64,000 nucleotides of DNA from Archilochus colubris (taxonomy: Eukaryota > Chordata > Aves > Apodiformes > Trochilidae): NCBI GenBank assembly GCA_023079485.1, contig CM041083.1, positions 155,886,552 through 155,950,551 on the forward strand, read 5' to 3'. The notes beneath the pieces are model-generated. The model did not search any database. It had not been told where the DNA came from and saw only the letters and a list, made by a program, of their open reading frames with translations. Position 1 is the first letter of the stretch. Every line of letters starts with the position of its first letter. This document shows positions 3,311-57,652 of the stretch, piece after piece. A program made the position numbers and the translations under genes.

Positions 3311-4052
3311 CAAGCCTGTTAATGTCCCTCTGGATGACATCTCTACCCTCTAGCATGTTGTCTTCACCACACAATTAGTGTGGTGGGTCATCAGCAAACT
3401 TGATGAGGGTGCATTTGATTCCACTGTCTGTGTTGTCAATAAAGATATCAAAAGGCAGTGGTCCAAGTACTGACCTTTGAGCAAAAACACTCATCACACA
3501 TCTCCATTTGGACACTGAGACACTGATCACAACTCTTTGGCTGCAACCATCCAGCCAGATCCTTATCCAATGAGTGGTCCATTCATCAAATCTGTATCAT
3601 TCCAGTTAAGGGATCAGAATGTTGTGTGGGACAGTGGTGAATGCTTTGTACAAATCCAGGTAGATGACCTCTGCTGCTCTGCCTTTGTCCATCAAGACTC
3701 TGATGCCATCATAAAAGGCCACCAAATTATTCAGGCAGGACATGCCCTTAGTGAAGCTGTGCTCGTCACCAATCACCCCTTTGTTATCTGCCTCCCTGAG
3801 CAGAGCCTTCAGGAGGATCTATTCCATGATCTTGCCAGACACAGAGGTAAGACTGACTGGTCTGTAGTTCCCTTGTTCCTCTTTTCTTCCATTTGTAAAA
3901 ATGGGGGCTTTCCAGTCAGTGGGAACTTTACCAGACTGCCATGACTTTTCAAATATGATGGACAGTGGCTTTGCAACTTCATCCACCAGTTCTTTCAGGA
4001 GCTGTGGGTGAATCTCACCAGGTCCCATGGACTTGTTCCCCTTCAGGTTCAT
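3311..4052 (-). mobile_element. CR1 LINE, internal ORF2 (reverse transcriptase) fragment
   Basis: A minus-oriented CR1 interior segment covering the reverse-transcriptase part of ORF2. On the plus strand it runs from the region encoding the stretch after the FADD box back to the start of the RT domain. Both the 3' UTR and the 5' part are missing. It is very similar over about 600 bp to 18279-18880, so the two belong to one subfamily. The right edge is abrupt, just after the block encoding the MNLKGNKSMGPGEIHPQ peptide. Confidence 0.9.
3819..4052 (-). pseudogene. CR1 ORF2 RT-domain remnant (77 codons)
   Basis: An open stretch whose translation carries classic CR1 RT motifs: MGPGEIHPQLLKELVDEVAK, then LSIIFEKSWQSGKVPTDWK, and NYRPVSLTSVSGKIME at the C-terminal end. 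In intact CR1 these lie at the N-terminal side of the reverse-transcriptase fingers/palm. A bulky deletion is visible between TDWK and NYRP (APIFTNGRKEEQG is shorter than the family norm). The ORF opens and closes within the repeat, so it is a dead remnant, not a host gene. Confidence 0.85.
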
Positions 4053-16239: not shown

Positions 16240-16454
16240 TGTAGTGGAACAAAACAATCAGACGCCTCTGATTACCGAGAAGTGGGTGTGAGCCAGTATC
16301 AAATCCACCTGTGCCCAATTAGGGCAGGCCCCCTATTGAGCATGTGCAAGACCAGGGGGCCAATAAAAGGTGAAACTCACAGCCACAGACTAGCTCACTC
16401 CCGAGCACTGTATTACCTTTATTGCGCCACTAGCGCTCATTGCCTCCAAGGTGA

Positions 16455-16530
16455 GGCTCTCGTGGCGCAGCTGGTTAAGACCCAGTACTGCAATGCCAAA
16501 AGCCCCAGGTTCGAGACTCCACAGAGAGCC
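16455..16530 (+). other. tRNA-like sequence in foldback element (copy 1)
   Basis: A 76-nt unit with a 7-bp acceptor-like stem (GGCTCTC with GAGAGCC), an A-box-like TGGCGCAGCTGG, a B-box-like GGTTCGAGACT, and TCCA right after the acceptor. The last is the order discriminator base plus CCA of a mature tRNA. The D, anticodon and T stems do not pair well, and the GTGG/CCAC pairing next to the acceptor extends the hairpin instead. I therefore call it tRNA-derived or tRNA-like, not a functional tRNA gene, and assign no anticodon. Confidence 0.55.
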
Positions 16531-16580
16531 TCCACAGTGCTCGGGAGTGTCACAGAGCTCATAGAGGTCAATGTTTCAAC

Positions 16581-16608
16581 TTTATTGCATACAAGCTCAG
16601 TTTATATA
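16581..16608 (-). promoter_or_regulatory. Putative LTR TATA box and poly(A) signal (minus strand)
   Basis: Reading the minus strand, TATATAAA (16608-16601) is followed about 15 bp later by AATAAA (16586-16581). The AATAAAGTTGAAAC context aligns with AATAAAAGGTGAAAC of the left arm. This suggests the right arm is an inverted LTR with homologous R region but a different U3. Confidence 0.45.
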
Positions 16609-16929
16609 CTGTTTCAGCTGTCCATGCCCCCTCCACCACACTCCAAAACAACCTTCCATTGATCACCCAATTCTGTTCACGTGCAGCAAAAGCGAATCCT
16701 ATTGGTGTAGGGGTGGGAACCACGAGCTTAGCACCGGCCCGCACCTCCCACCTTGTGGTTAACGATGTCCTGCATAGCATCCACTTTTGCTTGTTTTTCA
16801 CTTCGTGCCTCCTCTTAATCTGATGTCAAGGACAGGGTGTCCTTGTCACTCTGAGCAGCCTCAAACATAGGGTTGTGCATACAAGCATGCTGGAACACAG
16901 CATGCCCCTGCCTTTCAAGCCATTCCTCT

Positions 16930-17174
16930 ACAGGTAGATTTAGATTAGATATTAGAAATAAATTCTTTACTATAAGGGCTATGGGACTCTGGAAGTGGTT
17001 GCCTAGAAAAGCTATGGATACTCCCTCCCTAGAAGTGTTCAAGACCATTTTGGCTGGGTCTTGGAGCAACCTGATCTAGTGGAAGTTGTCCCTGCCTGTG
17101 GCAGGAAGGCTGAAACTACATAATCTTTGAAGTCCCTTCTAACTCATTCTATAATTTTATAATTCTATGATTTT
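16930..17174 (+). mobile_element. CR1 LINE 3' end
   Basis: A plus-oriented CR1 3' portion: 'AGATTTAGATTAGATATTAG', 'AGCAACCTGATCTAGTGGAA', and an end in ATTCTATAATTTTATAATTC/TATGA. It covers the last codons of ORF2 and the 3' UTR. Confidence 0.92.
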
Positions 17175-18278: not shown

Positions 18279-19130
18279 CGGGTCTGAGTACTGACCCTCG
18301 AGGAAAAACACTCATCACACATCTCCCTTTGGACACTGAGACACTGATCACAACTCCTTGGTTGCAACCATCCAGCCAGATCCTTATCCAATGAGTGGTC
18401 CATCCATCAAATCTGTATCATTCCAGTTTAGGAATCAGAATGTTGTGTGGGACAGTGGTGAATGCTTTGTACAAATCCAGGTAGATGACCTCTGCTGCTC
18501 TGCCTTTGTCCATCAAGACTGTGATGCCATAATAAAAGACCAAAAAATTATTCTGGCAGGACATGTCCTTAAGTGAAGCTGTGCTGGCTGTCACCAATAA
18601 TCCCTGTGTTATCTGCTTGCCTTAGCAGAGCCTTCAGGAGGTTCTGCTCCAAGATGTTGCCAGACACAGAGGTGGGACTGACTGGCCTGTAGTTCCCTTG
18701 TTCCTCTTATCTTCCATTTGTAAAAATGGGGGTTTTCCAGTCAGTGGGAACTTCACCAGACTGCCATGACTTTTCAAATATGATGGACAGAGGCTTTGCA
18801 ACTTCATCCACCAGTTCTTTCAGGAGCTGTGGGTGAATCTCACCAGGTCCCATGTACTTGTTTACCTTTAGGATCTTTAGGTGGTCTTGAACTTGTTCTT
18901 CATTTACAGTGGGAGAATCTCCTTTTTCTGGCCCCTGCTTTTGGCTTCTCCAACTTGGAGGGTGACCAGAGACATTGATGGTGAAGACAGAGGCAAAGTA
19001 GTCATTAAATACCTCAGCCTTCTCTATGTCTTGGGTGACCAGATCCAATTTGTGGACTACCAGATCCAATTTCCTCTGTACTTTTTCTTTCCTAACCTGA
19101 TTTCTTGCTTCTCTGAAGCAAGTTGTCATG
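18279..19130 (-). mobile_element. CR1 LINE, internal ORF2 fragment
   Basis: A minus-oriented RT segment starting at the GGTCTGAGTACTGACCCTCG block and running to the block upstream of the RT domain. It includes a small local duplication (CCAGATCCAATTT twice at about 19040-19075). Closely similar to 3311-4052, but it extends ~250 bp further toward the 5' end of the element. Confidence 0.92.
18707..19129 (-). pseudogene. CR1 ORF2 remnant, N-terminal side of the RT domain (140 codons)
   Basis: An open frame with CR1 landmarks in order: KAEVFNDYFASVFT (pre-RT linker), VNEEQVQDHLKILKVNKYMG, GEIHPQLLKELVDEVAKPLS, and IIFEKSWQSGEVPTDWK, ending before the expected NYRPVSLTS block. The N-terminal residues up to LVTQDIEK contain the LDLV repeat produced by the local duplication. 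The catalytic FADD region lies beyond this frame. It was retained by chance and is not a domesticated gene as far as can be seen: no promoter, no splice sites, both edges inside the repeat. Confidence 0.88.
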
Positions 19131-32774: not shown

Positions 32775-33027
32775 TGACAATTGACACAGGCAAAACTATA
32801 GAGCTAGGCTAAAGAGGGAGAGAGGAAAAGAAGATATGAGAGAGAGAGAAGTGGGAGAGAAAAAGGGTAAGAAAGTGGGAAGAAAGAATGAGAGAGAGAG
32901 AGTCAGAGTCACCAGCAGGGACCCAGCTGTCCAGCAAGTTTCTTCAAGATGGCGCTGATCCTGGACAGGGCCCGATGCGAGATGACGATGGGTCAAGAGA
33001 CGACCAAACAGCCCCAGCATGGACAGC

Positions 33028-33036
33028 CATATATAC
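33028..33036 (-). promoter_or_regulatory. LTR TATA box
   Basis: TATATATGG on the minus strand, upstream of a GGCTGTCC...GTTTGGTCG region that would hold the transcription start of the GC-rich LTR. Confidence 0.5.
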
Positions 33037-33096
33037 CCCTGAGTTCCTTTTGTTCCAAAGGGACAGCTTTCAGTCAGCTGCCACTGCAGCCAGGGG

Positions 33097-33270
33097 CATT
33101 GGCATCAGAGCCATTGCAGACAGGCTGCCTGGAGGGGAGCTGCAGCAGAATGGTGAAGTCCCCCACACACTCATCTGTTCTTATCTCCTTCCAGGTGTCA
33201 CCCCTGTTCTGCTTCAGAGAGGCCAGGTCCATTGGCATCAGAGCCATTGCAGACAGGCTGCCTGGAGGGG
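33097..33270 (+). repeat. Two identical 41-bp direct repeats in U3
   Basis: Positions 33097-33137 and 33230-33270 are identical over 41 bp (core CATTGGCATCAGAGCC). They are 133 bp apart, as in duplicated enhancer segments of retroviral U3 regions. Confidence 0.9.
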
Positions 33271-33851
33271 GGGCTTCCAGCACACAGCACTTATCTCTTT
33301 CCAGGCTCCACTCCCCACTCCGTTCCAGCCCCCTCTGCCAGGTACATCAGCATCAGTACAATCAAGGTGGTTTCCTCCACCCTGGCCAGGGCAATCGTGC
33401 CTGGAGGGACATCCCAGCATTGCAGGCTGGCCCTCAGAAAAGGGGAGCAGTCTCCACCCAGCCATTAGTTCTGATCATTTTGTGGGTGTCACCCCCTGCT
33501 CAGCTCTGGACAGAGCTTATCTTCCTCCACCCTAGGCAGGGCTATTCACTTTAAAATTGTCCTTTTGAGGCAAATTCCAGTTAGTGAGATCAGCGGACTC
33601 TCACAAGTTGTTATTGTGTTCAAATAACAGTTACAAAGCAAAAAGTGTTTAAGGAATGATTGAGTCAACTTGACTCAACTTGATTATGAGAAACCACATA
33701 ACAGTGCTGTTCTTCTCCGTGATAACATACTGAGAGGTAATTTTTAAGGAGTTATGAGCCATAAAGGCTTTAGTAATGTGGAGCAGAACAATACAACTGA
33801 TAAGATACCTTCCCTATTGCAAGCAAATTAGAACTCTTTGCACCAAAAACC

Positions 33852-36642: not shown

Positions 36643-37580
36643 ATTTAAATCATAGAATCATATAATTGGCTGGGTTGGAAGTGATCTCAGAGATCATCAA
36701 GTCCAACCCTTGATCCACTACCACTGCAGTTACCAGACCATGGCACTGGGTGCCACATCCAGTCTCTTTTTAAATATCTCCAGGGATGGAGAATCCACTA
36801 CTTCCTGGGAGGCAGCCCATTCCAATGCTTGATCACCCTCTCGGTAAAGAAATTCTTTCTAATGTCCAACCTAAACCTCCTCTGGCACAACTTAAGACCG
36901 TGCCCTCTTGTCTTGCTGAGAGTTGCCTGGGAAAAGAGACAAACCCCCACCTGGCTACCCCCTCCTTTCAGAGAGCTGTAGAGAGTGACGAGGTCTCCTC
37001 TTCTCCAGGCTGAACAGCCCCAGCTCCCTCAGCCTCTCCTCATAGGATCTATGCTCGAGTCCCTTCACCAGCCTGGTTGCCCTCCTTTGGACCCGCTCCA
37101 GGACCTTGATATTCTTCTAAACTGAAGGGCCCAGAACTGGACACAGTACTTGAGGTGCGGCCTCACCAGTGCTGAGTACAGGGGCAGAATCACTTCCTTG
37201 GACCTGCTGGCAATGCTGTTCCTGATACAGGCCAGGATGCCATTGGCCTTCTTGGCCACCTGAGCACACTGCTGGCTTATGTTCAGCTTCCTGTTGATCA
37301 AGACTCCCAGGTCCCTTTCTGCCTGGCTGCTCTCCAACCACTCTGTCCCCAGCCTGTAGCTCTGCATGGGGTTGTTGTGGCCAAAGTGCAGGACCCGGCA
37401 CTTGGCCGTGTTGAACCTCATCCCATTGGAATCAGCCCAACTCTTCAGTCTGTCCAGGTCCCTCTGCAGAGCCTTCCTGCCTTCCAGCTGATCGACACTT
37501 CCCCCCAGCTTAGTGTCATCTGCAAATTTGCTGATGATGGACTCAATCCCCTCATCTAAATCATCAATATACTAAATAGA
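36643..37580 (-). mobile_element. Young CR1 LINE nested in an older CR1 (938 bp)
   Basis: Minus-oriented, starting at the 3' tail (TAAATCATAGAATCATATAA) and running to the palm-encoding region, where it is 5'-truncated. It has few disruptions and shares its subfamily-specific 3' end (TTGGCTGGGTTGGAAG, 'GCACTGGGTGCCACATCCAG') with 53504-53962. Flanked by the 9-bp duplication AATACAAGT, unusually clean for CR1, which generally leaves short or no duplications. Confidence 0.95.
37065..37575 (-). pseudogene. CR1 ORF2 fragment with intact FADD box (~170 open codons)
   Basis: The minus-strand frame stays open from about 37575 to 37065. It includes [20 protein letters not shown] (catalytic F-A-D-D at 37526-37515), [37 protein letters not shown] and [20 protein letters not shown], the RT palm end, thumb and connection. 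A frameshift near 37090-37070 replaces the expected [13 protein letters not shown] with unrelated residues. The 5' truncation removes most of the RT domain, so the copy is dead, but the conserved catalytic box and low decay point to a late insertion. Confidence 0.88.
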
Positions 37581-57070: not shown

Positions 57071-57076
57071 GAAAAC
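57071..57076 (+). repeat. 6-bp target-site duplication, left copy
   Basis: GAAAAC immediately before the TGTAGTG start of the palindromic element. The same six bases follow its last base at 57647-57652. Confidence 0.85.
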
Positions 57077-57646
57077 TGTAGTGAAAAGAGGCAACCAGGT
57101 GCCACTGATTGCCAGGGAGTGAGCATGAGCTTGTGTCAAGCCCACCTGTGCCTGATTAGGGCGGGCCCCCACTGCACATGAGCAGGACCAGGGAGCCAAT
57201 AAAAGGTAAGACCTAAGACACAAACTCAGCTCACGCTGGAACTCACAATCTCGGCATGCTTGGCTTTCAGCACTGCACTACCTTTATTGCTCCACTAGAG
57301 CTCATCGCCGTCAGGGTGAGGCTTGAGTGGTGCAGCTGGCTAAGCACCTAACGACGCAGCCCAAGCAATGCTGAGGGCTGTGGGTTCGAGACTTCTCAAA
57401 GCCTCACCCTGACGGCGATGAGCTCTAGTGGAGCAATAAAGGTAGTGCAGTGCTGAAAGCCAAGCATGCCGAGATTGTGAGTTCCAGCGTGAGCTGAGTT
57501 TGTGTCTTAGGTCTTACCTTTTATTGGCTCCCTGGTCCTGCTCATGTGCAGTGGGGGCCCGCCCTAATCAGGCACAGGTGGGCTTGACACAAGCTCATGC
57601 TCACTCCCTGGCAATCAGTGGCACCTGGTTGCCTCTTTTCACTACA
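57077..57646. mobile_element. Perfect palindromic LTR-like insertion with tRNA-like loop
   Basis: The left arm 57077-57324 and right arm 57399-57646 are exact reverse complements over 248 bp with no mismatch or indel, enclosing a 74-bp loop. Ends are TGTAGTG and CACTACA (TG...CA), flanked by the 6-bp duplication GAAAAC. TG/CA ends plus a 6-bp duplication are characteristic of retroviral-type integration. Each arm reads inward like an LTR: CCAATAAAAGG (57197-57207) then CTACCTTTATTGC (57278-57290), which gives AATAAA on the other strand. The arms carry the 49-codon start MCLRSYLLLAPWSC in both orientations, a chance frame. The old relative at 16240-16905 shares the left end and centre. What made a two-ended U3 unit is unknown; I infer a snap-back reverse transcript. 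Confidence 0.9.
57320..57403 (+). other. tRNA-like loop of the palindrome (copy 2)
   Basis: 84 nt closed by GGCTTGA/TCAAAGCC (one bulged base). A-box match TGGTGCAGCTGG at 57328-57339 and B-box-like GGTTCGAGACT at 57383-57393, preceded by GTG as in T-arms. The length and the GTGG...CTAAGCACC start recall long-variable-arm (class II, Leu-like) tRNAs, but the T and anticodon stems do not pair well. It matches 16455-16530 in box spacing class and in the shared words CAGCTGG and GGTTCGAGACT. Confidence 0.55.
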
Positions 57647-57652
57647 GAAAAC
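57647..57652 (+). repeat. 6-bp target-site duplication, right copy
   Basis: GAAAAC directly after the CACTACA end of the palindrome. Confidence 0.85.

Follow-up and report, generated by a model that had tools for sequence, protein, structure and literature searches.

Background

Endogenous retroviruses and other LTR retrotransposons, with which we consider their short derivatives TRIM and SMART, are recognized by direct long terminal repeats (LTRs) flanking an internal region, by TG...CA ends and by a short target-site duplication (TSD) of fixed length; TG...CA ends with a 6-bp duplication are the retroviral pattern. The tRNA-derived SINEs are short, non-autonomous elements with a 5' tRNA head bearing A and B boxes, and their LINE-driven insertion gives duplications of variable length. 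Foldback elements and MITEs possess terminal inverted repeats, with mirror-image arms placed around a short centre. In birds, the chicken repeat Hitchcock appears in the accessible part of PMC4992247 with 27,033 in its count column, as read, and with the class 'undefined'.

Here we describe a family of palindromic elements in the hummingbird Archilochus colubris, starting from a window of 64,000 nucleotides (the whole stretch of DNA that was analysed; CM041083.1, positions 155,886,552 to 155,950,551). The family displays the TG...CA ends and fixed short duplication, here of 6 bp, expected of an endogenous retrovirus, and shares both with proviruses sampled in the same genome; however, in contrast to LTR retrotransposons, TRIM and SMART, its arms are inverted rather than direct, both of its outer ends are the same end, and neither a coding part nor a primer-binding or polypurine layout was recognized in it. 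Like tRNA-derived SINEs it is short and non-autonomous and has a tRNA-like domain with A-box-like and weaker B-box-like motifs, but this domain is central instead of forming a 5' head, the duplications are of 6 bp rather than of the variable LINE type, and no 3' tail was seen. It has the terminal inverted repeats of foldback elements and MITEs and the same mirror-image arrangement around a short centre, from which its retroviral-type ends and, in the first family, the lack of separately inherited left and right arms distinguish it. Like Hitchcock it is abundant and unclassified in a bird, and it may prove to be a relative of that repeat. In the open-licence literature searched, including the accessible parts of PMC4992247 and PMC5006616, we recognized no description of an element of this build.

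A perfect palindrome with retroviral-type ends

The palindromic unit (57077-57646, 570 bp) begins with TG, ends with CA and has no mismatches between its arms (Table 1); a chance origin of such a perfect 248-bp inverted repeat is excluded. The first-pass annotation of this DNA had reported the palindrome with its exact 248-bp arms and 74-bp loop, and on recomputation these proved correct to the base, as did the TG...CA ends and the 6-bp GAAAAC duplication; its statement that the two outer ends are the same end is supported. The repeat finder itself returned arms of 249 bp (57076-57324 and 57399-57647), the flanking C and G pairing by chance, and the 248-bp limits of the window copy were fixed through the TG and CA ends. 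A 7-bp duplication (AGAAAAC), shifted by one base, is an alternative for the window copy only, the family fitting 6 bp. The annotation had further attributed the identity of the arms to recent insertion or homogenization, which finds support both in the complete absence of mismatches and in the 4.2% that separates these arms from the closest of 78 other arms. One private substitution of the window copy is present in both of its arms, as is a 12-bp gap that is shared with one other arm (L020_R).

Table 1. Coordinates of the features of the two copies of the element in the window
Feature	Position	Strand	Basis
Left target-site duplication, GAAAAC	57071..57076		read from sequence; family TSD test
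Left arm, 248 bp, begins TGTAGTG	57077..57324	+	inverted-repeat detection
CCAATAAAAGG inside left arm	57197-57207	+	
Central spacer, 74 bp, core of tRNA-like domain	57325..57398	+	fold and box motifs
A-box-like motif	57328-57339	+	consensus from general knowledge
B-box-like motif	57383-57393	+	consensus from general knowledge
Right arm, exact reverse complement of left, ends CACTACA	57399..57646	-	
Right target-site duplication, GAAAAC	57647..57652		sequence; family TSD test
Second copy (subfamily 2), left arm, ~70% identical	16240..16452	+	sequence comparison
Second copy, tRNA-like domain, closing stem GGCTCTC / GAGAGCC	16453..16533	+	
Second copy, 16-bp right-arm remnant	16534..16549	-	perfect inverted match to 16396-16411

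A dispersed family with two subfamilies

A search of the window's own genome (1.0998 Gb in 182 contigs) with the unit as query found 80 matches, spread over 40 places that were each hit on both strands and nearly full length, with 76-100% identity; these were the places scored out of 2,556 first-look candidates, and the 39 others were retrieved with their flanks. The first-pass annotation had called for just such a genome-wide search for copies that keep arm, loop and inverted arm, and all 40 scored places turned out to be palindromic, a figure which shows that palindromes are many and not what proportion they form, since a symmetric query ranks palindromes first. A second subfamily of the same build shares about 70% identity with the first and has members that are mutually close (96-100% identity; 40 scored of 1,941 candidates, 39 copies retrieved with flanks for analysis). 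That no other palindromic copy might exist, the outcome which the annotation had set against its own reading, is contradicted by the further palindromic copies in both subfamilies, and we rejected the notion of a single-locus oddity or artefact in view of the many copies dispersed in the genome. The shared build was seen at at least 104 scored places across the two subfamilies (40 + 40 + 24 additional, tallied by eye). A truncated arm occurs at 17 of the 40 subfamily 2 places and at 8 of the 40 places found with a mirror query.

The window itself contains a relic of subfamily 2 (16240-16549) that had escaped the first-pass annotation; its right outer end and duplication were looked for and not found. 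It adjoins an LTR-like sequence on the reverse strand (16550-16930) with TATATAAA and AATAAA. We considered this sequence as a second LTR joined via a tRNA and rejected that reading in favour of flanking DNA: among ten copies lacking the right outer end no two share their right-hand sequence (L078 and L079 enter CR1-like repeats), and because these sequences all differ the LTR-like stretch is more simply, and probably, flanking DNA. Elsewhere in the window there is a dispersed repeat pair (3460-4050 and 18281-18875, 92% identical over 595 bp), as well as two CR1-like tails, in keeping with a bird or near relative as the source of the DNA. At 32840-33554 a pair of open frames that overlap (231 and 220 aa, neither with a Pfam match) enclose a 49-bp repeat (33089-33137 and 33222-33270, 96% identical). 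A weak RVT_1 match on the reverse strand (37068-37571; E 6e-4, below the Pfam cut-off) falls within sequence resembling further dispersed repeats of the window. The Pfam scan covered ten window frames, none lying in the element.

Insertion footprint and empty sites

In the TSD test the best TG/CA pair was taken at most 3-4 bases from the expected ends. The check for 6-bp duplications copy by copy, likewise suggested by the first-pass annotation, found them exact in 28 of 40 first-family copies (a further 7 at 5/6, 1 at 1/6 and 4 without TG/CA in range). In subfamily 2 the right outer end is kept in 30 of 40 copies, 26 of which have exact duplications (2 at 5/6, 1 at 1/6, 1 without TG/CA). As a control, the next six bases outward matched at 4/6 or fewer in 65 comparisons. 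Probes made by joining the two flanks with a single copy of the target (n=68) identified clean paralogous empty sites within the genome for four copies other than the window palindrome, namely L012, L104, L114 and L017. The empty site of L012 is in a CR1-like repeat, with 81% identity over 300 bp and no gap at the junction; that of L104 is represented by three junction-crossing alignments, all in its own tandem array; those of L114 and L017 have 69% identity, ungapped at the junction in the former and with a one-base gap close to it in the latter. The L024 probe had its junction spanned, but by an alignment gapped within a simple-repeat tail, and the match of the L036 probe was L036 itself.

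A search for the integrase domain PF00665 recovered at least 150 matches, all above the cut-off among the 150 scored of 2,360 candidates. Most of these 150 are situated, by eye, on contig C32 (32 Mb), a pattern that would suit a female-specific sex chromosome in which retroviruses find a refuge. Six proviruses sampled beside integrase matches have LTR pairs that are 99.1-99.7% identical over 310-461 bp; by eye, four have exact 6-bp duplications, one has a duplication with one mismatch and one is unclear. The exact duplications of these young proviruses indicate that recent 6-bp integrations exist in the genome. Neither a TGTAGTG start (one begins with TGTAGA) nor a match to the arms was seen in any of the six LTRs, and none of the six primer sites, compared by eye, resembles the central domain of the element.

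A tRNA-like domain at the centre

The first-pass annotation had described the loop as a 74-bp joining segment; the length stands, but its tRNA-like nature had been overlooked. Together with a closing stem that continues the arms, the domain occupies approximately 57318-57405, and the stem places GAGGCTTGAG opposite CTCAAAGCCTC in the window copy and GGCTCTC opposite GAGAGCC in subfamily 2. Box motifs were scored, against consensuses from general knowledge, in 41 domains (those of 40 first-family copies plus that of the relic at 16 kb). The A box matches at 9/9 positions in 25 domains, 8/9 in 13 and 7/9 in 3, while a 9/9 match occurs in 1 of 1,025 shuffles and the opposite strand reaches 7 at most. 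The B box is weaker (9/9 in 1 domain, 8/9 in 15, 7/9 in 22 and 6/9 in 3), with at least 8/9 in 16 of 41 domains against 11 of 1,025 shuffles. The domain with its A-box-like motif is retained in the two subfamilies, which are about 30% apart.

ARAGORN at default settings called no tRNA in the element, and with a relaxed threshold drew tRNA-like folds on both strands. Rfam at the gathering score gave no tRNA (best match tRNA-Sec, 13 bits, E 2.7), and neither Rfam nor ARAGORN at default settings assigned the element to a family. The consensus fold of the 41 domains supports the closing stem but did not recover a cloverleaf, and only 1 of the 18 pairs shows a change kept at both of its positions. 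We call the domain tRNA-like, and not a tRNA, because the default ARAGORN and Rfam calls are absent and the fold has no cloverleaf. A degenerate pattern of the domain found no exact match among viral contigs.

Relationships among the arms

On average an arm is closer to its partner in the same copy than to the arms of other copies: in the first family (40 copies, trimmed) the arm distance is 5.0% within a copy against 10.3% between copies (untrimmed, 5.6% against 11.1%), and in the 23 full-span palindromes of subfamily 2, also trimmed, 1.8% against 3.6%. Counting trimmed columns and leaving gaps uncounted, 9 of 40 first-family copies and 4 of 23 in subfamily 2 have no difference between their arms. 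For 47 of the 80 first-family arms the nearest of the 79 others is the partner in the same copy, the remaining 33 being closer to another arm. States confined to a single copy but carried by both of its arms number 35 for the first family and 20 for subfamily 2, alongside 170 and 84, respectively, that are restricted to a single arm.

The left/right tests were run on alignments from which the first 3 and last 12 columns had been trimmed. Swapping the left and right labels in the first family gave a statistic at least as large as that observed in 958 of 1,000 permutations, the largest column difference being 0.125 against a permuted mean of 0.16; by this test of 40 copies we found no separate left and right arm lineages. 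The untrimmed test of this family has one column with a difference of 0.95, which we take as an edge effect of unequal cutting of the arms at the domain. A slight distinction between left and right remains in subfamily 2 (trimmed, 27 of 1,000 permutations; untrimmed, 42), where a single column close to the inner end has a left-right difference of 0.35 (4/200). Judged from the sequences, this pattern seems to fit a process in which one arm is made from the other in each round and the two then decay independently; strong gene conversion may be an alternative source of it.

Three of the 40 first-family copies (L028, L036 and L039) are chimeric. Their outer halves are alike, with 0-3 differences per 25 columns, whereas from about the CCAATAAAAGG stretch inward the inner halves differ strongly, by up to 12 of 17. 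Both arms of L045 lie near this deviant inner half, and L045 together with the chimeras reveals a third arm type, which has the outer half of the first family and a different inner half. Two templates with a common outer half must have met to form the chimeras, for which template switching between RNAs would be the simplest account and recombination between genomic copies the alternative.

Truncated copies

Among the 40 right arms of subfamily 2, 23 span the whole arm (five of these with 9-40 gapped positions), 7 are without the inner part and 10 without the outer end. No CA with an exact duplication was detected within about 900 bp in the latter ten. In six of the seven inner-truncated cases the right arm starts at nucleotides 6-8 of GAGAGCCT, at the domain's 3' edge (L060, L064 and L074 by computation, with 2-3 bases of overlap; L065, L069 and L085 by eye). 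Such starts could be read as traces of reverse transcription that the 3' end of the tRNA-like domain primed at varying positions, and this reading predicts truncation of the right arm only. The mirror query (40 places scored of 2,099, of which 16, by eye, are also in the subfamily 2 sample) allowed the left arms to be considered, with 20 of the 40 places retrieved and read, including all 8 truncated ones. Here 32 left arms span the whole arm, 4 lack the inner part and 4 the outer end; L103-L106 are truncated in the same manner as the right arms, two of them up to the edge of the domain, the other two with 12-13 inner bases left. The right (17) and left (8) counts come from differently built queries and are not comparable as numbers. 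As left arms are truncated too, the right-only truncation predicted by variable-site priming was not found, and we rejected the variable right-arm starts as decisive proof of priming. Centre-proximal deletion is well known for palindromes and predicts truncations on both sides; it is sufficient to account for those seen here, and we regard variable-site priming as a doubtful explanation of them.

A proposed mechanism and its alternatives

Based on these observations we propose, with a probability of about one half, that the elements are non-autonomous and copied through RNA, that the tRNA-like 3' end primes the copying of the element's 5' leader, and that the resulting hairpin is inserted by an integrase of the retroviral type. 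The RNA would carry the arm as a 5' leader ahead of the tRNA-like domain, whose 3' end would already be paired in the closing stem, so that a reverse transcriptase could extend it over the leader. The product would be a perfect hairpin, its second arm newly copied from the first; synthesis of the second strand would convert it into a linear duplex with two identical ends, and the integrase would insert this duplex with duplication of 6 bp. The RNA intermediate, its transcription by Pol III, the self-priming, the second-strand step and the donor of the integrase are the steps that we infer, and the weakest point is how the 5' end of the RNA would come to fall at TGTAGTG. The model would explain the palindrome, the central domain and the identity of young arms, and it would also explain the weak or absent left and right lineages, the chimeras and the insertion footprint. 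We rate as evenly balanced the proposition that the window palindrome is a recent member of a multi-copy family of non-autonomous retroelements in which an arm, a tRNA-like domain and an inverted arm follow one another. More tentatively, we suggest that the family may form a class of its own among mobile elements, a hairpin retroelement that primes itself, whose domain would serve as Pol III promoter, loop and primer at once, whose second arm would be made afresh in every round, and which would borrow a retroviral integrase by presenting the same end twice.

The mirror-image arms and the lack of a recognized coding part, both typical of MITEs, could instead point to a DNA transposon of the foldback or MITE type, with long terminal inverted repeats, a transposase duplicating 6 bp, a captured tRNA-like centre and arms kept alike through gene conversion; recombination between elements could then yield the chimeric arms. 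We consider this unlikely, because the TG...CA ends with 6 bp conform to the pattern of the young proviruses sampled here, and because gene conversion would be required to wipe out any left and right lineages of the first family, yet the arms drift after insertion; the retention of the A-box-like domain across the two divergent subfamilies also argues against it. The LTR-like character of the arms, the TG/CA ends and the 6-bp duplications, together with a tRNA-like centre at the very place expected of a primer, raises the alternative that the palindromes are by-products of endogenous retroviruses, namely aberrant reverse transcripts of proviruses in which an LTR was copied twice, inverted around the tRNA primer. 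Strand transfer could in that case give the chimeric inner halves. The recurrence of the same build in two subfamilies and the absence from the six sampled proviruses of the arm as an LTR and, by eye, of a matching primer site make such an origin quite improbable. Palindromes are also a known source of assembly error, as the first-pass annotation had cautioned; for the family an artefact is barely credible, being contradicted by dispersed copies that differ in duplications, divergence and truncations, and by the paralogous empty sites.

Implications

If the self-priming mechanism is true, a non-coding RNA would parasitize retroviruses in the way that SINEs parasitize LINEs, and would do so with a single end sequence in place of two LTR ends. 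Perfect palindromes and double-stranded RNA would then arise naturally from the family across a bird genome, and each insertion would be dated by a clock of its own, the differences between its two arms.
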